Assembly: GCF_004322395.1 (NCBI RefSeq)
Contig: NZ_SCTW01000131.1
Location: 1 to 45,307 of the forward strand
DNA from: Methylobacter sp.
Lineage (GTDB): Bacteria; Pseudomonadota; Gammaproteobacteria; Methylococcales; Methylomonadaceae
DNA length: 45,307 nucleotides
Direction: 5' to 3'
Of this stretch, positions 1,782-14,970 are shown piece by piece. The position numbers were made by a program, and so were the translations under genes. Position 1 is the first letter of the stretch; every line of letters starts with the position of its first letter. The notes beneath the pieces are model-generated. The model searched no databases, was not told where the DNA came from, and was given only the letters and a program-made list of their open reading frames with translations.

Positions 1782-2219
1782 TTAACGATTTTCGACTTCC
1801 CAACCCTTGCAGGCCAAGGCAATGTGGTGCGGAACGGGACGGGCGCCGGTTCCGTATGAGCTCATGGTGCGTGTCGTCATGCCCAATGCTCGTGCCGCCT
1901 CGGCTAACGACAGGCCGTTACGCAGCCGCCAGGCTAGGAAAGTACGGGTGTCTTCGTCGGCGGCGGCTTGATACATAGCTTCCAGCCATAAAGTATCGGC
2001 TCCGATTTGAATATCGTGGTCTGTCCATTCAACCGTCCAACCTACGCTGTTGGTAAGCCGAACTTTGGAGAAAGCATCCGGGTCGCGCAGAGGCGAGAGG
2101 CCAGGTTTGGCGAATATGGCTTCACCTTTATCTACAGTCATTACGCTGCCGTTAATAAAGGTCATCTTTAGCTGATAATTCGGTAAAGGTTCAACCGCTG
2201 CTAAGCGGGGGCGTTTCAT
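1782..2219 (-). CDS. DUF2442 protein fused to a helix-turn-helix domain
   Basis: About 145 residues. The N-terminal ~80 residues (from MKRPRLAAVEPL, with NYQLKMTFINGSV and the DPDAFSKVRL segment) fit DUF2442. The C-terminal part, from about AWRLRNGLSLAEAARALGM through TTRTMSSYGTG, reads as a helix-turn-helix of the Cro/C1 sort. Its start lies inside the end of the upstream DUF4160 gene (overlap about 29 nt), so the two are translationally linked. DUF4160-DUF2442 neighbours are widespread and often described as toxin-antitoxin-like; the HTH fusion would suit an autoregulating partner. That role is inference. A longer start eight codons upstream is possible. Confidence 0.75.
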   Translation of the reverse strand: MKRPRLAAVEPLPNYQLKMTFINGSVMTVDKGEAIFAKPGLSPLRDPDAFSKVRLTNSVGWTVEWTDHDIQIGADTLWLEAMYQAAADEDTRTFLAWRLRNGLSLAEAARALGMTTRTMSSYGTGARPVPHHIALACKGWEVENR

Positions 2220-2442
2220 TGATACCACTATTCCATTCCTCAATCAATTTATCACGGTTTTCCGTAACCCACGCCATTACCTCTTTGCGCAATCCGCGCG
2301 GGAAGGTGCCGGTGCAGTTCAGGGTCTCCAGGTTAATCACTACATCAAAATTGCCTCCGACCAAGTGCGCATGCGCCGGCGGAGAGTCGTCTTCTCTTAT
2401 CTCAAGTCGGTATTTGTTGCGAAAGCGATGCTTCGTAGCCAT
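2191..2442 (-). CDS. DUF4160 domain protein
   Basis: 83 residues. The HRFRNKYRLEIREDDSPPAH segment followed by AHLVGGNFDVVINLETL and FPRGLRKEVMAWVTENRDKL matches the DUF4160 pattern of a PPxxH motif, a short beta hairpin, then a W-containing helix. It is the first gene of a two-gene unit with the overlapping DUF2442-HTH gene. A second, independent DUF4160/DUF2442 pair sits at 11164-11665. Biochemical function is not established for the family; small size and pairing suggest a toxin-antitoxin-type module, which I cannot show from sequence. Confidence 0.75.
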   Translation of the reverse strand: MATKHRFRNKYRLEIREDDSPPAHAHLVGGNFDVVINLETLNCTGTFPRGLRKEVMAWVTENRDKLIEEWNSGINETPPLSSG

Positions 2443-2718
2443 ATTGCAATGTTAGGGAATAATTCGAATATGTCAATTGCGTTGTCGTGAGAGGAACGAT
2501 TAAAAATACGTAAAGCTATTTTATTCCCCTTGGATTTAAAATCGGCTTGCAGTTTGCCAATCGTTTTGTGCCAGCCCAGCGTTGCTGGTGTCGAAACGTT
2601 GGATAACGAACAGATATTTTTATCTGCTTTGATAGCCTGAGCGCCCTGTTACTCAATTTTGATGTCCATCGCCTTGAATGAACGGCGCTAAGGGGCAGCA
2701 AAAACAAGGAGATTAGAT

Positions 2719-3948
2719 ATGAAAGCAGTAGTGTTTCACGCCATCGGCGACATACGATTAGATGACGTTCCTGAACCGAAAATACAAGACCGAACGGATG
2801 CGCTTGTACGCCTGACTTCATCGGCGATCTGCGGTACAGATTTGCACATGATCCGGGGCACGTTCTCAGGCATGGTGCCCGGCACGATCCTCGGTCATGA
2901 AGGCGTCGGCATCGTCGAAGAGGTTGGCAAGGATGTGCGCAACTTGCGGCCGGGAGACCGGGTTGTAATCCCTTCGACGATCTGCTGCGGATATTGTTCT
3001 TACTGCCGTGCGGGCTATCAAGCGCAGTGCGACAATACTAATCCGAATGGCCCAAGTGCGGGCACGTCATTTTTCGGCGGGCCCAAGGCATCGGGACCTA
3101 TTCAGGGTTTGCAAGCCGAATATGCCCGTATCCCGTTTGCACACGCCGGGCTGGTCAAGCTGCCTGAAGAGGTCACCGACGATCAGGCCATTATGTGCAG
3201 CGACATCTTCCCGACCGGGTACTTCGGTGCCGAACTGGCCGAGATCGAGGACGGCGACACGGTGGCAATCTTCGGTTGCGGTCCTGTCGGGCAGTTTACG
3301 ATTACCAGCGCGAAGTTAATGGGGGCTGGGCGTATCTTTGCGATTGACCGTGAAGCATCGCGTCTTAATATGGCTCAGGCGCAAGGTGCGGAGATTATCA
3401 ATTTCGATGAGGAAGACCCGACCGAAGTCATCAAGCGAATGACTGGCGGTATAGGAGCCGATCGCGCAATAGATGCTGTCGGAGTTGATGCTGTGACCGG
3501 GCATGCTGCACCGGTGGCTAAGCAGGACAAAGAGCAGTTCGAGCGGGAGCTTCAGCAAGTCGCGCCGGAGCAGCATCCCCAAGGCGCCAACTGGGTACCG
3601 GGCGATGCGCCGTCGCAAGCCTTAAGATGGGCGGTCGAGGGTTTGGCAAAGGCTGGCACGCTCTCGATCATCGGCGTCTATCCGCCAACTGCTCAGTCGT
3701 TCCCCATCGGCAAGGCGATGAGTAAAAACCTGACGATGCGGATGGGCAACGCCAATCACCGGCACTACATACCGCATCTTATTGATCTCGTGAAAAACAA
3801 CACGGTCGATCCTGAAAAAGTTCTGACGCAATGCGAACCTTTGACGAACGTGCTCGACGCTTACAAGGCATTCGACACACGGCAACCAGGTTGGGTCAAG
3901 GTCGAACTCAAGCCGGGCGCGCAAGCTGCTCGCCGGAAAGCAGCTTGA
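2719..3948 (+). CDS. Zinc-dependent alcohol/formaldehyde dehydrogenase-like protein
   Basis: 409 residues of the medium-chain dehydrogenase family. Catalytic zinc ligands are visible as C38 (SAICGTDLH) and H60-E61 (GHEGVG). The structural zinc set is C90, C93, C96 and C104. A Rossmann motif, FGCGPVGQF, lies near residue 190. The long insert after [12 protein letters not shown] and the overall pattern resemble the branch that includes glutathione-independent formaldehyde dehydrogenase and threonine dehydrogenase. It would oxidise an alcohol or aldehyde hydrate with NAD(P) in the cytoplasm; the substrate is not determined. AAGGAG lies just before the ATG. It is followed by a perfect palindrome and an SDR gene in the same direction; both are more GC-rich than the genes around them, which hints at joint transfer. 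Confidence 0.85.
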
Positions 3949-3958
3949 GTCTAAAAGC

Positions 3959-3991
3959 AAACCTTCCAGGTTTTAAAAACCTGGAAGGTTT
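3959..3991. repeat. Perfect palindrome between ADH and SDR genes
   Basis: Arms AAACCTTCCAGGTTTT and its complement meet around a single central base, giving a near-continuous 33-bp palindrome that ends 19 nt before the SDR start codon. It looks like a mobile REP-type intergenic palindrome rather than a terminator, since no T-run follows. As mRNA it would form a strong hairpin upstream of the SDR ribosome site. Confidence 0.8.
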
Positions 3992-4010
3992 AACGCCAGG
4001 AGATCAAACT

Positions 4011-5048
4011 ATGAAACCAGACATTAAACCCAATGACATCGAACGTGAGCATACTAACCTATGCTCACGACGCCGGTTCGTCGGCGGTATGGCTACAGGT
4101 ATTATCGCAGCTTCTGCAACGCCGGTTCTCGGGCAGCAAGGGAACTCGCGGCAGACGCTCGACCAAACGGCCAAACAGAATCCGGTGACTCAGTATCCGA
4201 GGCCGCCTTTCCGGCGGCAATCTCAGGATTGGCCCGGTCTTGCAGGCAAAATGACTCCGCGCCCGGACCATGGCGAGACAAGTTACGAGGGCAACGGACG
4301 GCTTGCAGGCCGTAAGGCGTTGATCACCGGCGGCGACTCCGGCATCGGGCGTGCGGCAGCTATTGCCTATGCTCGCGAGGGAGCCGATGTCGCGATTAAC
4401 TATTTGCCCGCCGAAGAGCCGGATGCTATTGAGGTGATCCAGCTGATACGTGAGGCAGAGCGCAAAGCAGTCGCGCTTCCGGGCGATATACGCGACGAAA
4501 ACTTTTGCAAGCAACTGGTCGCCGATGCGGTGCGCGAACTCGGCGGCCTCGATATTCTGGTCAACAATGCGGCTAAACAGCATTCCGTCAATTCGATCCT
4601 TGATCTTACCACCGAGCAGTTCGATGCGACTTTTAAGACCAATCTCTACGCAATGTTTTGGATCACTAAAGCCGCGCTGCCGCATTTCACCGCAGGTGCG
4701 AGCATCATCAACACCTCATCGGTTCAGGCTTATAATCCGTCCGAGAACCTGCTCGACTACGCCCAGACCAAAGCGGCAATCGTGTCGTTTACTAAATCCC
4801 TCGCTAAGCAGCTTGGCGAGAAAGGCATCCGCGTCAACGCAGTCGCGCCCGGGCCGGTCTGGACGCCGCTTCAGGTCAGCGGAGGCCAACCGCCAAGTGC
4901 TTTGGAGAGTTTCGGTGAAAATACGCCGATGGGACGCCCCGGCCAACCGGCAGAGCTCGCCGCTGTTTATGTAACGCTGGCTTCACAAGAATCCAGTTAC
5001 GCCAGCGGGCAGGTGTATGGCGTGTCGGGCGGTAGCGGAAATCCTTAA
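4011..5048 (+). CDS. Tat-exported short-chain dehydrogenase/reductase
   Basis: 345 residues. The reading frame is open upstream, but ATG 4011 has AGGAG 8 nt ahead and starts a sensible protein. Residues ~20-45 carry a twin-arginine signal, SRRRFVGG followed by a hydrophobic run ending ATPVLGQQ, so the enzyme is predicted to be folded with its cofactor and exported. The SDR core has [10 protein letters not shown] (cofactor-binding glycine motif), NNAAKQH, the catalytic serine in NTSSVQ and the YAQTK catalytic Tyr/Lys, ending [11 protein letters not shown]. It resembles the YhxC/Gsp39-type SDRs, which are normally cytoplasmic; the Tat signal is the oddity. Substrate unknown. Probably co-transcribed with the zinc dehydrogenase. 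Confidence 0.85.
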
Positions 5049-5260
5049 ACCGTGCATAAGCTGCTTCCGGCTAGGTAGTACTTGTCCTGCATATCAAGCA
5101 GAACAACTTATTCAAAGACCGGTATTGAGGGGCACGAAGGTGGGTTGTCTATAAAAAGGTGCGCGAGCTTTGCATGGCGACATCAATTGAAATCGGCACG
5201 CATCATATGCAATTAATCAATAAACATTAATTAAAACAAAAGGCTAGGTTAAGCTCTATA

Positions 5261-5293
5261 ATCGGCAAGAAAATCGGCAAAATCCGCAGAAAA
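5261..5293. repeat. Three short direct repeats upstream of fic
   Basis: Three imperfect copies of ATCGGCAAGAAA (ATCGGCAAGAAA, ATCGGCAAA, ATCCGCAGAAAA) lie in tandem just after a TATAAT hexamer at 5257-5262. They could be an operator for the downstream Fic gene. The promoter assignment is weak because I see no good -35 box. Confidence 0.4.
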
Positions 5294-5344
5294 TAGTATA
5301 CTTCATCTTATAAAAACAACATCTTGCGTAATTATAAGATCGGC

Positions 5345-6541
5345 ATGCCACTATCTATCGAAACACCTTACCGAATCGAGCCCTGCCTGCTTGAAAACAT
5401 CCCGATTGCAATTACAGACCTGATCGCGAATCTAACAGCGTCGTCGGAAAGACTCGGCGGCCGATTACATCCGCGTACAGCCGCCAGTCTGGCTGAGCTG
5501 GTTCGGATTATGAATTGCTATTACTCGAACCTTATCGAAGGACATCATACCAAACCAAGGGATATTGAACGGGCCTTGGCGGATGACCTGGAAAAAGATC
5601 AAGTGCGCCGTAACTTTCAAATCGAAGCGCGTGCCCATGTCAGCGTACAACAGACGATTGACCGGCTCTATGCGGCAGGGAATATGCCGGAACCGGCATC
5701 GACCGAGTTCTTATGCCGGTTGCACCGTGAATTTTACCGTGATGCCCCGGAAGCTATGCTTTGGGTAGACAATGGGGATCATGGTTTTCGAATGGAGCCG
5801 GGGGCGTTCCGTTCCTTGCCCGAACACAATGTTTCGGTCGGAAGGCATCTTCCGCCCAGCAGTGACCGTGTCGCCGAGTTTATGCGTTATTTCGAGCAAC
5901 GCTATCGCTTGGCTAATATGGGCAAGGGCGAGCGGATTATCGCCATGGCCGCATCGCATCATCGCCTGGCCTATATTCATCCATTTCCGGACGGCAACGG
6001 TCGCGTCAGCCGGTTAATGAGTCATGCAATGGGATTGGCAGCCGGCATTGGCGCATCAGGGCTTTGGTCGGTATCGCGCGGACTCGCTCGCGGCCTGGAA
6101 AGCCGGCAGGATTACAAAAACAAAATGGATTATGCCGATATGCCGAGACAAGGCGATTTGGACGGCCGTGGGAATTTATCCCAAAAGGCATTGATTGAAT
6201 TCATTCGCTGGTTTTTAGAGATATGCCTTGACCAGGTGGGTTTTATGGCGGGCCTATTCGAATTCGACCGATTGGCCGGGCGTCTTAAAGCCTACGTGGA
6301 AAGCCGGGCCTTAAAACCGGAGGCTTTTTATATTTTGGAAAGAGTGCTGATTCAGGGCGAGATGCCAAGAGGCGATGCCGAACGCGTTACCGGCTTGAAA
6401 GAGCGCAGTGCCCGCATGGTTCTTTCAAGCTTGATCAATGACGGAATATTAAAGTCTGAAACGCCTAAAGGGCCGGTATCGTTGCATTTTGGCAGTGAGT
6501 CGGTTGAGTTTTTGTTTCCGAGATTGTTTGCGGAAAATTAG
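5345..6541 (+). CDS. Fic family protein, class II (N-terminal inhibitory helix)
   Basis: About 398 residues from ATG 5345; a TTG seven codons upstream is an alternative start. The Fic core motif HPFPDGNGR lies near residue 212, complete with the catalytic His and the phosphate-binding loop. Near residue 61 the sequence SNLIEG fits the (S/T)xxxE(G/N) inhibitory motif, so the glutamate can obstruct ATP until relieved: a self-contained class II Fic. The C-terminal ~90 residues ([20 protein letters not shown]) form a winged-helix domain that may bind DNA. Most such enzymes AMPylate protein hydroxyls; targets are unknown. It heads the accessory cluster that continues with toxin-antitoxin and defence-type genes. 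Confidence 0.9.
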
Positions 6542-6626
6542 GTTTTGGCTATCAATAATATGCTGGACTTAAGTGCTTGGGTTATGAAGTCATTACACTG
6601 GAACAGATAGCGAGGTTACTAAGATC

Positions 6627-6845
6627 ATGACAACTATATCCATCCGATTACCCGATGATATGGCGGAAAGACTCAAGGACATTGCCAAAGCGCGCGGCAT
6701 TAGTTTAAACAAGCTGATGTTTGAGTTATCCATACAAGCCTTGGCGGAAGAGGAAGCGAAGCAGCGATTCCTGGCAGCGCAATTGCGCGGCAATCCCAAG
6801 CGGGCAGCGCAATTGTTGGATGAGCTGGATGCGTTGGGGCTTTGA
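6627..6845 (+). CDS. Ribbon-helix-helix (CopG/Arc-type) protein
   Basis: 72 residues. MTTISIRLPDDMAERLKDIA is a classic ribbon followed by helix A, and RGISLNKLMFELSIQALAEE completes the ribbon-helix-helix DNA-binding fold. The charged C-terminal tail (LRGNPKRAAQLLDELDALGL) resembles toxin-binding tails of antitoxins. No toxin-sized gene follows before the next module at 6987, so it is either an orphan antitoxin, a regulator of the upstream fic gene, or a stand-alone repressor. ATG 6627 has a GAGG 11-12 nt upstream, a rather long spacing. Confidence 0.75.
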   Translation: MTTISIRLPDDMAERLKDIAKARGISLNKLMFELSIQALAEEEAKQRFLAAQLRGNPKRAAQLLDELDALGL

Positions 6846-6986
6846 AAGTTCGGAAAGAGCCATTTCGAAATAGCAAACCGCCAATCAACTTACAACGCCG
6901 ATTACAATCAGTCGAAGTTCTGGTGCTAATTTTTGGCTTGTTATGCATAGCACTAAGTGCTATAAATAATCAAAAAAGAGGGCGGT

Positions 6987-7800: not shown

Positions 7801-8901
7801 ATGAACACTGAAGACATAAACACTGACAGCGAGGAAATTGAAGGTCTTGATAAAGATGAAGATGCCTCATTGGGTGATTACCCGATCGACACTCTGTTGA
7901 TCAGAAATGAGACACGAACAGTTCATGATGTGCTGCGTCGAATCAAGGCTGGTGCTTTTGTTATGGATCCAGACTTTCAGCGTGATTTTATATGGCCTGA
8001 TGATAAACAGAGTAAGCTTATCGAATCAGTGCTGATGCGGATTCCATTACCCGTGTTCTATCTTGGGGAAGATGATCACGGTCGAATGATTGTTGTGGAC
8101 GGCTTACAGCGGTTATCAACCTTTAATCGCTTTGTGAATAACGAACTCAAATTAAAACTGCCCAATCAATCTGAACTGGATAAAAAAGTATTTAAAGACC
8201 TTTCGCCTAAGTTTCAAAACCGTATCGAAGACTGTAATTTAATACTGTATGTCATTGATGCGAAAGTACCTGAGCGAGCACGTTTGGATATTTTCGAACG
8301 AGTTAATGGTGGGATTGCGCTGAGTCGTCAGCAAATGCGCAACTGTTTGTTCAATGGTAAAGCGACTAAATTTCTTAAGGAGGAGGCAGCGACAACGCTT
8401 TTCAAATCGGTAACCGGAGGCAGTCTTAACATTCAATCGATGCGCGACAGGGAATTTGTTAATCGATTTTGTGCATTTCGATTATTGTCTCTTGATTCCT
8501 ATAAAGATATGGATGAATGGCTTGCATTAGCGCTAAAAAAAATGAATAGCTTGGATGACGAGGCTCTAATCAAACTATCCAATGAATTTCAAAGCTCGCT
8601 ACAAAACAATTACTCTCTTTTTGGCGAACATTCTTTTCGTAAGCATTCTCCGAGACAAGATCGCCGTGGGGTTCTAAACGCGTCTCTATGGGATGTCATG
8701 ATTATAGGACTTGCGCAATTTTCTCATGAACAGGTTGTTAATCACGCTGAAGAACTTAAGCATCGTTTTTATGCGTTGATTAAAGAAGAGAAATTCGTCT
8801 GGGCGATTACTTATGGCCCAAACAGTCCTGATCGGGTGAAGTATCGTTTCAAAGTAACCCAAGAAATGTTTGCGGAGGTCTTTAATGCTCACTCGTCTTG
8901 A
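7801..8901 (+). CDS. DUF262 (GmrSD/ParB-like) protein, first gene of putative defence operon
   Basis: 366 residues. After an acidic ~30-residue leader, residues ~35-230 form a DUF262 domain: DPDFQRDFIWPDDKQSKLIE, PLPVFYLGED, then VVDGLQRLSTF around residue 100, the DGQQR-type signature of ParB/Srx-fold enzymes such as the GmrS half of GmrSD. FERVNGGIALSRQQMRNCLF is the other typical block. The family can hydrolyse nucleotides and often partners nucleases. No HNH/DUF1524 nuclease domain is visible at the C terminus. Its end overlaps the ATPase gene by 17 nt, so the two are translationally coupled. A role in anti-phage defence is inferred from domain content and surroundings. Confidence 0.85.
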   Translation: MNTEDINTDSEEIEGLDKDEDASLGDYPIDTLLIRNETRTVHDVLRRIKAGAFVMDPDFQRDFIWPDDKQSKLIESVLMRIPLPVFYLGEDDHGRMIVVDGLQRLSTFNRFVNNELKLKLPNQSELDKKVFKDLSPKFQNRIEDCNLILYVIDAKVPERARLDIFERVNGGIALSRQQMRNCLFNGKATKFLKEEAATTLFKSVTGGSLNIQSMRDREFVNRFCAFRLLSLDSYKDMDEWLALALKKMNSLDDEALIKLSNEFQSSLQNNYSLFGEHSFRKHSPRQDRRGVLNASLWDVMIIGLAQFSHEQVVNHAEELKHRFYALIKEEKFVWAITYGPNSPDRVKYRFKVTQEMFAEVFNAHSS

Positions 8902-10024
8902 TCTTCAATACTTCAAATGCTTTAAGCAACTTAAGCTCCCGCTAGCCGAGTTAACATTATTGTCTGGCACTAATGCCTCTGGCAAATCATCGGTTATTCA
9001 ATCACTTGTGTTACTGCATCAAACCATACGTGAGCACGAATGGTCGACACGATTGATGCTGAATGGAGATTCCATCAAATTAGGTACTGTGTCTGACGTA
9101 ATCGATAAAGTGCATGGTAGAAGAACATTCGGAATCGGTTTGATAGATCACGAACAAAGTTATTGGTGGCATTTTTTTGGAGAACGGTCCGAAATGTCCA
9201 TGGCCGTTGATTGTGTTAGTGTTGGTCAAGCGTCAAATGAACAGCCGAAATCTTTGCGTTATCTTCTTCCTCCCAATGAAAACGGAATTAAGTCATCGTT
9301 GGCTGAACGTTTATGTGGCCTTACCTATATTACTGCTGAACGAATAGGACCTAGAGAAGTTTATGCCCTTGAGGATCGTCAGATTGCTTCCGTTGTAGGG
9401 CCTGCCGGTGAACATGCAGTTAGCGTACTACATTGGGGGCGGGACAATCCTGTTCTTAAAGAGATTGTGATTCCTGAAGTTGCAAATACATTGTTGCGCC
9501 AGGTTGAAGAGCGTATGCGAATGTTCTTTCCTGGCTGCGCTCTATCGGTACAACAGGTTCCGCAAGCAAATGCAGTGACTCTAGGGCTACGCAATTCGGA
9601 GGATACTGATTTTCATCGTCCGATACATGTTGGCTTTGGCCTGACTCAAGTTTTACCCATTGTCATTGCAGCACTTTCATCAGTGAAAGGGGATATTCTT
9701 CTGATTGAAAATCCGGAAGTTCATCTGCACCCCGCTGGGCAGGCACTCATGGGACAGTTTTTGGCTGATGTCGCTCAGGCTGGGGTTCAGGTTATTGTTG
9801 AAACTCACAGCGACCATGTTCTTAACGGGATTCGCCGTTCAGTTAAGGCTGAACGGATTAAGCCGGAACAAATTGCCATTCATTTTTTTAGGTCGCGTTC
9901 GGAGGAAATAGCTCAGATCACCAGTCCTTCAATAGATAATTCCGGCAATATCGATACTTGGCCGGACGGTTTTTTTGATCAATTCGATAAAGACACAAAC
10001 TATTTCGCCGGTTGGGGAGAATAG
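8885..10024 (+). CDS. AAA-type ATPase with DUF3696 end, second gene of putative defence operon
   Basis: 379 residues from ATG 8885, chosen over an upstream in-frame start because GGAGG lies 5 nt before it. The N terminus has MLTRLDLQYFKCFKQLKLPL, typical of SMC/RecF/OLD-like ATPases, with Walker A in SGTNASGKSS (~28-36). Walker B is ILLIENPEVHLHP near residue 272, followed by a switch segment ETHSDHVLNGIRR. The C-terminal IDTWPDGFFDQFDKD is the DUF3696 signature. It probably senses or loads on nucleic acid and drives the effector. It overlaps the DUF262 gene and is 1 nt from the following gene, so all three act as one operon. Confidence 0.88.
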   Translation: MLTRLDLQYFKCFKQLKLPLAELTLLSGTNASGKSSVIQSLVLLHQTIREHEWSTRLMLNGDSIKLGTVSDVIDKVHGRRTFGIGLIDHEQSYWWHFFGERSEMSMAVDCVSVGQASNEQPKSLRYLLPPNENGIKSSLAERLCGLTYITAERIGPREVYALEDRQIASVVGPAGEHAVSVLHWGRDNPVLKEIVIPEVANTLLRQVEERMRMFFPGCALSVQQVPQANAVTLGLRNSEDTDFHRPIHVGFGLTQVLPIVIAALSSVKGDILLIENPEVHLHPAGQALMGQFLADVAQAGVQVIVETHSDHVLNGIRRSVKAERIKPEQIAIHFFRSRSEEIAQITSPSIDNSGNIDTWPDGFFDQFDKDTNYFAGWGE

Positions 10025-10025
10025 C

Positions 10026-10976
10026 GTGGAACTACTTGTGAACGACCTCTCTATAGCGGGGCAGTTTGCTGATCTTGCTACTTTTCAAGGAGCAATTGAT
10101 CGGGTAATGGCTATGCGTGTGATCGCAAAACAATTTGGTCATGAATTATATTGCCACAAGAATATCGCTCGTGCGCAAGTGACGCAAAATTTATCGATGC
10201 CCCAAGCTATTCAGGCTTTTGAAAGGAATAAGCAGCAAGCCATTATGCAATGGCTTACAAGACATGGGCCTTTTTGGGAAGAGTCTCGGCTTCATAGCCC
10301 CGATGATTATTTGGAATGTAATGGGGAGATTGTCACAGAAACTGCGGTAGGCGAGGCTGCTTTCTGTTCTCATCATGGAGTTCAACGTCACCTTATAAGC
10401 ATGACGCCATCTTCATGGGAATTTTCACCCATAACTGTCGATTGGGTTAGTGATGGCAAAATTCGAAGTTTTGCTGTTGTTAACTATTGGGAAGAGGAGG
10501 AACTGAAATCCAGTCTACGAGCAGCATCCGCACCAATTTCATCGTGGAAGCAATTAGAGGAGGTTGCAAGAAAACGTTTTACTGATCTGACATTTTCTAT
10601 CGATAGCTTTGAACTTCTCTATGGACATCCTTTTGTTCCAAGTGCTTCACGTCAAATACTTACTCTGTTAGAAACTTTAAATCGATTCAAGTGTTGTTTT
10701 GATGGTAATGGCGTGAGGACAGAAGAGGGAGATCAAATTTATCAGAATCATTTCACAGGTAATGAAGCTTGGTTTACTGATTCTTCATCATCGGAAAAAA
10801 ACGAATTTAACGCCGAGTTGACTTTTAAGCATCCCGAATTAGATGGCAAATTTTTATTTTGTTCTTGGCATGGTAAGGTGAACACACCAAAAATACGCAT
10901 CCATTTTTCTTGGCCTGTGCGGTCGGACGAGTCTTTGTATGTGGTTTATGTCGGTCCAAAAATTACTAAACGGTAA
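10026..10976 (+). CDS. Unknown protein, third gene of DUF262/ATPase operon
   Basis: 316 residues starting with GTG one base after the ATPase stop, behind GGGGAGA. I recognise no family. Visible blocks are ELYCHKNIARAQVTQNLSM, ECNGEIVTETAVGEAAFCSH, a WVSDGKIRSF strand pair, and FSIDSFELLYGHPFVPSASR. The C-terminal ~100 residues are rich in His, Trp and acidic positions. There is no signal peptide or membrane helix, so it is cytosolic. Strict coupling to the ATPase suggests it is an effector or specificity subunit; the conserved-looking acidic and His positions could be catalytic, but that is speculation. Confidence 0.8.
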   Translation: MELLVNDLSIAGQFADLATFQGAIDRVMAMRVIAKQFGHELYCHKNIARAQVTQNLSMPQAIQAFERNKQQAIMQWLTRHGPFWEESRLHSPDDYLECNGEIVTETAVGEAAFCSHHGVQRHLISMTPSSWEFSPITVDWVSDGKIRSFAVVNYWEEEELKSSLRAASAPISSWKQLEEVARKRFTDLTFSIDSFELLYGHPFVPSASRQILTLLETLNRFKCCFDGNGVRTEEGDQIYQNHFTGNEAWFTDSSSSEKNEFNAELTFKHPELDGKFLFCSWHGKVNTPKIRIHFSWPVRSDESLYVVYVGPKITKR

Positions 10977-12050: not shown

Positions 12051-12115
12051 TGAGCATTCCCGAATCCCGATCATCCTTCGACAAGCTCAGGACGAACGGG
12101 ATTCGGGAATGCTCA
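12051..12115. repeat. 19-bp perfect inverted repeat with interspersed-repeat core
   Basis: TGAGCATTCCCGAATCCCG (12051-12069) is perfectly complementary to 12097-12115, with a 27-nt loop containing CCTTCGACAAGCTCAGGACG, a motif I know as a dispersed palindromic element in many proteobacteria. It sits between the orphan Phd gene and the lipA fragment and marks a likely recombination or insertion point. Confidence 0.75.
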
Positions 12116-12142: not shown

Positions 12143-12550
12143 TTAGTCGGGCATTACTCCCTGAGCCTGAAGATCAGCATGGTACGAAGATCGAACCATC
12201 GGCGCGCTGGCGACTTGTTTAAACCCTAAAGCTTTGGCAACTGTGCCGTATTCATCGAACTGTTCGGGCGTGATATAGCTTTGCACCGGCAAATGGGCTT
12301 TGCTGGGTTGCAGGTATTGGCCTATGGTCAGCATTGAGCAGCCGTGGGCTAATAAATCTTTCATGACTTGATGAACTTCTTCCGGCTGTTCGCCGACGCC
12401 GAGCATTAGGCCGGATTTGGTCGGAACTTGCGGTTGGGCTTGGTGGAATTGTTTTAATAGGTCCAGCGAACCTTGGTAGTCGACGCCGGGGCGGGCTTGT
12501 TTGTACAGTCTGGGTACTGTTTCCAGGTTGTGGTTGAATACGTCGCAGCA
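12143..12550 (-). pseudogene. lipA C-terminal fragment (partial duplicate)
   Basis: About 400 bp closely matching the intact lipA at 13960-14970, from the [14 protein letters not shown] region through [16 protein letters not shown] to [16 protein letters not shown], where it stops 16 residues earlier than the intact protein. The radical-SAM cysteines and two thirds of the gene are absent. The break at ~12550 is abrupt: after GAATACGTCGCAG the sequence changes to an unrelated repeat-like stretch. Both copies share orientation. It cannot make an active enzyme. Confidence 0.9.
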
Positions 12551-13385: not shown

Positions 13386-13465
13386 GGTCGAGTAGCCCAA
13401 AGGAACTGCCCCTTGAGGCTCTCACAGAACCGGACGTGAAACTCTCGCTTCATCCGGCTCATATC
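13386..13465 (-). ncRNA. Group II intron 3' end (domains V and VI), remnant
   Basis: On the minus strand, 13460-13427 reads GAGCCGGATGAAGCGAGAG, then TTTCACGTCCGGTTC, a classic domain V hairpin. It is followed by a domain VI-like hairpin and the end TACTCGACC at 13394-13386. A second copy with the same terminal sequence occurs at 38569-38645. The 5' domains of this intron are missing, so it cannot splice. Confidence 0.8.
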
Positions 13466-13478
13466 TTCAAGCTTAACC

Positions 13479-13920
13479 CTACCAATGAGCAAACGTTCTT
13501 GGATTTCTTGACTTAAAGGCGTTTAATCGCCTCAGTGCTTGGGTAATCGTTTTAAGCTTCTTGTATTTTCGCTTTGCCCAACGGCTCAGCTTCTTGTCAA
13601 CATGAAATAAAACGTGGTTAAGTTTGCCACGTCCATATTTTCCATAATACCTCTCCCAACCGCGCAACTTGCTTTGGCTATAAGCGATGATGTCTTTCAT
13701 CTCGTCTTGCGGCCATTTTAGCCAGGGCCATGCATTAATCTCGGAACGTATCCTTTTGGCGGCTTTCCGACTAATGGCCGGAAGAAAGCAAACTAATAGG
13801 ATTCCATCCCGGCATTTGTCAATTGGGGACGAAACGTAAATCCCAGAAAGTCAAAGCTGATCTGTGCGTAATCCGCTTGGTTTTTCCAGCTCTTACAATA
13901 GACAATCTGACGGCTCAATG
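13479..13920 (-). pseudogene. Group II intron reverse transcriptase/maturase, C-terminal remnant
   Basis: The minus strand encodes SRQIVYCKSWKNQADYAQIS, then FDFLGFTFRPQLTNAGMES (end of the RT domain). One frameshift near 13800 leads into CFLPAISRKAAKRIRSEIN and KLRGWERYYGKYGRGKLNHV, ending KSRNPRTFAHW (maturase domain X). The YADD-bearing palm and fingers are absent. It lies directly upstream of the intron domain V, as expected for an intron-encoded protein. The truncated 5' end abuts the lipA stop region. Non-functional. Confidence 0.88.
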
Positions 13921-13959
13921 GCCGCCTTTTCCCTGTCGCTCACGACAAAGGCTTTTGAC

Positions 13960-14970
13960 TTATGCCGCAGGGTAGTTTGATTCCAGCGACTGGTCGCCGA
14001 AATCGAGAGCGTCCGGCATCACTCCATGAGCCTGAAGATCGGCATGATAAGACGATCTGACCATCGGCGCGCTGGCGACCTGTTTAAATCCCAAGGCTTT
14101 GGCAAATTCGCCGTACTCGGCAAATTGTTCCGGAGTGATGTAGCTTTGCACCGGCAAGTGGGCTTTGCTGGGTTGCAGGTATTGGCCGATGGTCAGCATC
14201 GAGCAGCCGTGGGCCAATAAATCTTCCATGACTTGATGAACTTCGTCCGGCTGTTCGCCGACGCCTAGCATAAGGCCGGATTTAGTCGGCACTTGCGGCT
14301 GGGCTTTGTGGAATTGTTTCAGCAAGTCCAGTGAGCCTTGGTAATCGGCACCGGGGCGGACTTGTTTGTACAGCCGGGGCACGGTTTCCAGGTTGTGGTT
14401 GAATACGTCGCAGGGCTGTTCGGATAATATGGCTACGGCTTTTTCGATGCGTCCGCGAAAGTCGGGCACCAGGATTTCTATTTTGGTAGTCGGCGTTTGC
14501 CGGCGGATTTTTTTAATGCAGTCGGCAAAATGTCCGGCTCCACCGTCTCTTAAATCGTCGCGGTCTACCGAGGTGATGACGACGTATTTCAAGGCCATGG
14601 CCTGTATCGCATCGGCCAGGTGTTGGGGTTCGTCTTTATCCAGCGGCAGCGGTTTGCCGTGTGCTACGTCGCAAAAAGGGCAGCGGCGGGTGCATAAGTC
14701 GCCCATGATCATGAATGTGGCGGTGCCGTGCTGAAAACATTCGCCGAGGTTGGGGCAGGCGGCTTCTTCGCAAACGGTATGCAGGTTGTTTTCGCGCAGC
14801 AGTTGTTTGATTCGGGTAACTTCATTGCCGCCCGGTACTTTGATCCGTATCCACTCGGGTTTACGTAAAGTGGTTTCGGCAGGCTCCACTTTGATCGGGA
14901 TTCTGGCTAGTTTTTCGCTGTTGCGCTGATGAGAGTCGGGGGTGGAACGGGAAGGCGCTTGATAGGTCAT
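13960..14970 (-). CDS. lipA: Lipoyl synthase
   Basis: 336 residues. LipA inserts two sulfurs into octanoyl groups on E2 and H proteins using radical SAM chemistry. Both iron-sulfur sites are visible: the auxiliary cluster motif [12 protein letters not shown] (CX4CX5C), its C-terminal serine ligand in RSSYHA, and the radical-SAM CTRRCPFC. The start overlaps the lipB stop by 4 nt. It is the last gene of a long minus-strand operon; immediately downstream lies a group II intron remnant and beyond it a partial second lipA copy. The C-terminal tail [17 protein letters not shown] is absent in that copy. Confidence 0.97.

Follow-up and report, generated by a model that had tools for sequence, protein, structure and literature searches.

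Menshen, an anti-phage system made up of NsnA, NsnB and NsnC, reportedly goes back to Millman et al. 2022, and Li et al. 2025 is said, from its title, to offer a full analysis of the Menshen domains. Here, a three-gene operon at positions 7801 to 10976 of contig NZ_SCTW01000131.1 from Methylobacter sp. was compared with Menshen and with related systems; "the window" denotes the whole stretch of DNA that was analyzed (45,307 nucleotides). PMC10952713 describes DUF262 as an NTPase that triggers the nuclease domain in SspE, with a switch role proposed likewise for GmrSD and BrxU; it also describes Menshen as being without DUF1524 and states that Menshen and Dazbog no longer defend the cell once their DUF262 genes are mutated or deleted. 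A further operon, ptuXYZ, has the same gene order and domains, and in PMC11980606 its third protein is modeled as a PIN-like plus a BECR fold.

The three-gene operon and its match to Menshen

Gene A (nsnA; 7801 to 8901, forward strand, ATG start) encodes a 366-residue DUF262 (GmrSD_N, ParB/Srx-like) protein, gene B (nsnB; 8885 to 10024, forward strand, ATG at 8885) a 379-residue ABC/OLD-type ATPase with a DUF3696 end, and gene C (nsnC; 10026 to 10976, forward strand, GTG start) the third Menshen component, of 316 residues. A check of the open reading frames (ORFs) bore out the layout given in the sequence-only reading, an earlier annotation of this DNA: the last 17 nt of A (8885 to 8901) are also the first 17 nt of B, and the GTG of C lies 1 nt past the B stop. 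Pfam and motif analysis agreed with its DUF262 and DGLQR in the first gene and its Walker A and B motifs and DUF3696 in the second. A matched GmrSD_N/DUF262 (PF03235; E = 2.5e-22) and contains VVDGLQRL; B, in which both Walker A and Walker B were found, matched AAA_15 (E = 1.2e-22), AAA_21 (E = 5e-18) and DUF3696 (E = 2.5e-15). No Pfam family exceeded the cut-off for C, and nothing in NCBIfam did so for A, for C or, among the best 25 of 38 matches, for B.

The PADLOC models named all three genes. NsnA (PDLC03877) matched A at E = 3.9e-113 over residues 11 to 362 of 366, NsnB (PDLC03878) matched B at E = 1.9e-108 over residues 1 to 374 of 379, and NsnC (PDLC03896) matched C at E = 3.2e-127 over all of residues 1 to 316. 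The runner-up models were PD-T4-2_A for A (129.5 bits versus 376.6 for NsnA) and PDC-M55A for B (133.8 bits versus 361.3 for NsnB), and the GajA, Old and PtuA models listed scored at most 56 bits on B. A search of the operon's own genome gave a single match to A. With a DUF262-bearing NsnA, an NsnB ATPase and NsnC in the order A-B-C, the operon is almost certainly a member of the Menshen family and, judged by its sequence, an intact system. The resemblance to Menshen that the sequence-only reading had pointed out was thereby substantiated, and its proposal of a candidate new system was ruled out. Its description of the third gene as having no recognized domain holds for Pfam and NCBIfam, neither of which covers NsnC, and fails for PADLOC, in which both the Menshen system and the NsnC family are already known. 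As a locus, this is one more copy of a catalogued defense system, and hence ordinary.

Besides Menshen, from which this copy differs by species and NsnC subtype (PDLC03896), several systems share parts of the operon. PD-T4-2 has a DUF262 protein of similar length; its partner genes differ from those of Menshen, and the scores above ruled it out as the family of A. Septu PtuA, Gabija GajA and OLD ATPases have an ABC/OLD-like ATPase core in common with B, and the nearest solved sequences in a PDB search with B were the OLD nuclease 6p74 (E = 5.7e-8) and PtuA 8ee4 (E = 1.6e-5); a PDB search with NsnA gave no match. B differs from these proteins in being far closer to NsnB, in having other partners and in giving no Pfam match to TOPRIM at E ≤ 1. 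The resemblance of its N terminus to 6p74 would suit a Menshen system in which NsnB is an OLD-type nuclease effector under NsnA control; with a B of only 379 residues and no TOPRIM, we regard this as quite improbable, and an OLD nuclease effector in B was rejected on the latter ground. GmrSD, BrxU and SspE, likened here by sequence alone, share DUF262 with its DG-x-QR-type NTP motif (DGLQR here) but differ in their DUF1524 HNH nuclease domain, for which none of the three proteins gave a Pfam match at E ≤ 1; GmrSD-like restriction was thus ruled out.

Gene order, spacing and distribution among relatives

To follow the operon across its phylum, 398 genomes were surveyed with the NsnA model (E ≤ 1e-3), which matched in 94 of them, scoring between 19 and 480 bits. 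Thirty-eight listed matches (L036 to L072 and L075) were examined with their surroundings: 27 at 323 bits or more, which are all listed matches of that strength outside the own genome, and 11 at 216 to 259 bits. NsnB adjoined NsnA in 24 of the 27 and in none of the 11; the strong matches without an adjoining NsnB are L044, L057 and L062. Behind NsnB, an ORF of 249 to 347 residues followed in 22 of the 24 loci (L051 ends there, and L046 has none close). Seven of these 22 third ORFs were similar enough to C of the window to be found by phmmer at 1e-3, and 12 of the other 15 (alignment A6) matched the NsnC model PDLC03879 at 1e-5. The NsnA ORFs of L041, L060 and L061, at 576 to 683 residues against the usual 350 to 430, may carry extra domains.

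The reverse search, by NsnC, gave 51 loci in named genomes, mostly metagenome assembled, with records from Methylococcaceae, Variovorax, Desulfobacteraceae, Acidobacteria, Nitrospirales, Latescibacteria, Verrucomicrobiae, Planctomycetota, Spirochaetia and others. Full-length A, B and C stood in that order in 43 of the 51, counting L084 and L098, which have a stop in A, and L085, in which B is split over two frames. Four loci reach a contig end and have B next to C (L096, with a stop in C; L107; L113; and L114, with no A in the 520 nt available), three have pieces missing (L119; L122, without B; and L125, with no A within 3.8 kb upstream of B), and one (L123) has the C-terminal domain of NsnC alone, without A or B. 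The co-occurrence in fixed order that the sequence-only reading had wished to see was therefore found, and a third gene routinely apart from the first two was not seen: NsnC lies directly behind NsnB in 47 of the 51 loci, the 4 contig-end loci included. Because the NsnC search patterns sat in the C-terminal domain, free-standing copies of that domain were not selected against.

Spacing and divergence counts omit 11 of the 51 loci (L084, L085, L096, L098, L107, L113, L114, L119, L122, L123 and L125), leaving 40, to which the window was added for divergence (41 systems). With the B start taken as the start of the tblastn match, the A/B overlap was present in 38 of the 40 intact relatives and measured exactly 17 nt in 19, and the B-C spacing was −4 to +17 nt in all 40. 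Since both recur in this way, the close packing of A, B and C is beyond chance. The spacing suggests translational coupling of the three genes, hinting at it without proving it, and the earlier wording, "obligately coupled," is too strong. A promoter and terminator scan found 5 and 4, respectively, against 7.7 and 3.7 in shuffles.

NsnC was present in 3 of 61 relatives' genomes, including the own genome, and all 3 belong to the own genus (3 of 23). In one of these carriers (G413), C is split over two ORFs, and A and B are 76% and 72% identical to those of the window. NsnC is thus patchy among relatives. A scan of viral contigs with NsnC gave no match, and a plasmid search with NsnC gave three records at 27 to 34% identity. 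When phages were searched with NsnA, 155 records matched, of which 1 covered at least 80% of the query; 15 were listed at 27 to 30% identity.

The NsnC C-terminal domain and the proposed mechanism

Conservation along NsnC, averaged over 20-residue stretches, was lowest at residues 141 to 160 (0.36), was 0.43 to 0.45 at 21 to 60 and 161 to 180 and was highest at 281 to 316 (0.72 to 0.73). NsnC is predicted to consist of a variable N-terminal part and a conserved C-terminal domain that starts near residue 170, because conservation dips at 141 to 180 and because the L123 protein shares only residues 173 to 315 (37% identity). The latter, a 618-residue fusion protein (L123 positions 3582 to 5438), comes from a Rhodanobacteraceae genome. 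An unrelated, coiled-coil-like part of this protein precedes the NsnC C-terminal domain at its end, and a Pfam scan of the whole protein gave sub-threshold coiled-coil matches only.

The best-conserved stretch, residues 281 to 316 (10866 to 10973, forward strand; WHGK..RIHFSWP..YVGPKITKR), holds a set of polar residues. Among 62 NsnC sequences, divergent types included, H282 and K/H312 are present in all 62, H/Y293 in 61 and K284, R291 and Y/H308 in 60 each. This motif, H-x-K...R-x-H/Y...Y/H...K/H, looks catalytic and is a candidate active site. BECR RNases that need no metal act through His, Lys, Arg and Tyr residues. When a wide profile of the NsnC C-terminal domain was compared by hhalign with Gp49 toxins, which we take to be HigB-type, the score was 22.1 (probability, 9%), and the alignment covered the strand pair around R291 and Y308. 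With match columns only, the score was 21.5, which none of 150 column shuffles reached (mean, 9.1; maximum, 13.8); reversed columns gave 12.6, and windows of other profiles gave at most 15.7. The third protein may therefore end in an RNA-cutting toxin domain.

Building on the gene order, families and conservation pattern, all of which are direct observations, we consider it slightly better than an even chance that, overall, this is Menshen with NsnC as the effector, NsnB as an ATPase sensor and NsnA as an NTP switch. In the proposed mechanism, for which we infer every role and the order of events and which as a whole falls somewhat short of an even chance, the ABC-type ATPase NsnB would hold the complex together as a scaffold and sense a phage cue, and NsnA would act as an NTP-driven switch, not as a nuclease, because DUF1524 is absent. 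The variable N-terminal part of NsnC would dock the protein or set specificity, while its conserved C-terminal domain would be a RelE/HigB-like (BECR-fold) RNase toxin, silent until infection; once active, the toxin would stop translation, and the infected cell would yield no phage. Because neither DUF1524 nor TOPRIM was found, this domain is the best effector candidate. The near-invariant H, K, R, H/Y, Y/H and K/H set, the alignment with Gp49/HigB-type toxins and the occurrence of the domain fused elsewhere without A or B (L123) all argue for an NsnC effector, as does the PIN-like plus BECR model that PMC11980606 gives for the third protein of a DUF262/ATPase operon. The switch role for NsnA follows the triggering of a nuclease domain by the DUF262 NTPase of SspE (PMC10952713).

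Several results weigh against an NsnC toxin. The match to Gp49 is weak, as the 9% for the wide profile indicates, and profiles from alignment A5 alone (the window plus 38 of the 40 loci, with L087 and L093 omitted as seemingly near-identical to kept rows) gave 0.4 to 0.7% against Gp49, though at the same position. YoeB and PIN profiles gave only 0.1 to 0.4% with any part of NsnC; for the Gp49, YoeB and PIN profiles, 30 loci each were fetched, and 14 each passed length and stop filters. Gp49 against YoeB, a control pair of two BECR toxins, reached only 1.5%, so hhalign is insensitive here. A Pfam scan of 39 NsnC members gave no toxin family or convincing match, and a PDB search with the NsnC profile gave one chance-level hit. 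PMC10952713 mentions a predicted OLD nuclease/TOPRIM in Menshen, whereas B here is without TOPRIM.

Divergence also bears on the roles. Across the 41 systems (820 pairs, which are not independent, in a set picked by NsnC similarity), A had a median pairwise identity of 0.58, B of 0.56 and C of 0.42. The identity of C was lower than that of A in 817 of the 820 pairs and lower than that of B in 803, making NsnC the most divergent component. DGLQR of NsnA was invariant in all 41 systems. The A, B and C distance matrices correlated at 0.91 to 0.93, which none of 999 permutations reached; therefore, in this NsnC-selected set, the genes travel together. The faster divergence of NsnC would suit a sensor no less than an effector, and it is in keeping with a different Menshen, put forward in part by the sequence-only reading, in which NsnC would serve as phage sensor or specificity subunit, with NsnB the signal transmitter and NsnA, with its ParB/Srx fold, the nuclease effector. 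That reading had an ATPase sensor, a DUF262 effector and a third protein acting as specificity factor or second effector; we regard the third protein as the better effector candidate. The many PADLOC models needed for NsnC, against one each shown for NsnA and NsnB, point the same way, and PMC11980606 names the DUF262 protein a putative nuclease. Yet the nuclease of the DUF262 proteins reviewed in PMC10952713 is DUF1524, absent here, and the best-conserved part of NsnC is the polar, catalytic-looking motif. This arrangement is possible but doubtful, and the evidence does not firmly separate it from the one with NsnC as effector. The near-invariant motif marks the residues to change for learning whether NsnC is the effector.

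As PMC11980606 describes it, ptuXYZ, like the operon here, has a DUF262 protein without DUF1524, then a PtuA-like P-loop ATPase and then a third protein with a conserved C-terminal domain. It differs in the PIN-like N-terminal fold of PtuZ, which is unsupported in NsnC (profile probability, 0.2 to 0.4%), and its BECR fold finds a weak profile match to Gp49, and none to YoeB, in NsnC. Judged by this description, the two are probably the same system. The word Menshen is absent from the main text of PMC11980606, which was the only one of the papers listed naming ptuXYZ, PtuX or PtuZ to concern the operon. Nor does this paper belong to the 11 that mention both Menshen and phage. A literature search on DUF3696 found no paper, and PMC10568477 has no mention of Menshen, DUF3696 or Nsn. 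In the literature searched, the two names look unlinked; either the connection or the assignment of the domains may have been published already. Tentatively, then, Menshen could be a three-part toxin system in which NsnC joins an exchangeable N-terminal module to a BECR (RelE/HigB-like) RNase domain at its end, NsnA and NsnB supply an NTP-gated restraint and phage sensor, ptuXYZ is the same system and the C-terminal domain also occurs outside Menshen, as in L123.

The variable site beside lipA

The operon lies near lipA (full gene, 13960 to 14970, reverse strand), whose 3' side was compared in 21 members of the genus, several ending early at contig ends. In 5 of the 21 (L219, L223, L227, L229 and L232), no more than about 0.35 kb separates the lipA end from the DNA of window positions 1782 to 2500, which contains a DUF2442/HTH gene (1782 to 2243). 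In L217 (genome G407), that DNA lies 6.2 kb from lipA, separated from it by an SDR remnant, a PIN gene and a 1,429-residue protein, and the remaining 15 did not show it. In the window, about 11.5 kb, including Menshen, separates those same neighbors, and Menshen DNA had no match in any of the 21 lipA-side stretches. The site is variable in the genus, because the content between shared neighbors differs among its members. A same-family operon with a non-defense function in the host would have to be squared with this variability, with the patchy presence of NsnC (one of the three carriers having a broken copy) and with three Menshen models matching at E ≤ 1.9e-108, and it is extremely improbable.

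Upstream of Menshen lie a Fic gene (PF02661, SoFic-like; E = 6.8e-24), a ribbon-helix-helix gene and a HigB-type RelE gene (PF06296) adjoining an HTH gene; downstream lie DUF4160, DUF2442 and Phd-like genes. The flanks listed in the sequence-only reading were confirmed except for the Phd-like gene, which falls below the Pfam cut-off (21.3 versus 29.8 bits). Its defense island is supported by the Fic and small toxin-antitoxin-type genes at a variable site, to a modest degree only. The Fic region (5184 to 6540) recurs beside lipA at L223 588 to 1944 (G409; 82% identity), and the ribbon-helix-helix region (about 6560 to 6850) recurs near lipA in L220, L226 and L229, in each case without Menshen. 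By eye, the 1,429-residue protein of L217 (6996 to 11285), beside the PIN gene, contains a stretch resembling Walker A; it matched nothing in Pfam or PADLOC and is possibly an uncatalogued defense NTPase.

At the lipA 3' end lies a group II intron remnant (13387 to 14024, reverse strand; Rfam RF01999 at 13905 to 14024 and RF00029 at 13387 to 13462), and synteny with relatives stops at the intron start. A 73-residue ORF inside it (13479 to 13700) resembles a maturase end by eye. The 3' part of lipA is doubled (12145 to 12548 and 14011 to 14310; 88% identical over 300 nt), with the copy lying between Menshen and lipA. After the Phd-like gene, a 27-nt inverted repeat (12051 to 12115; 93% complementary, 11-nt loop) is likely a terminator.

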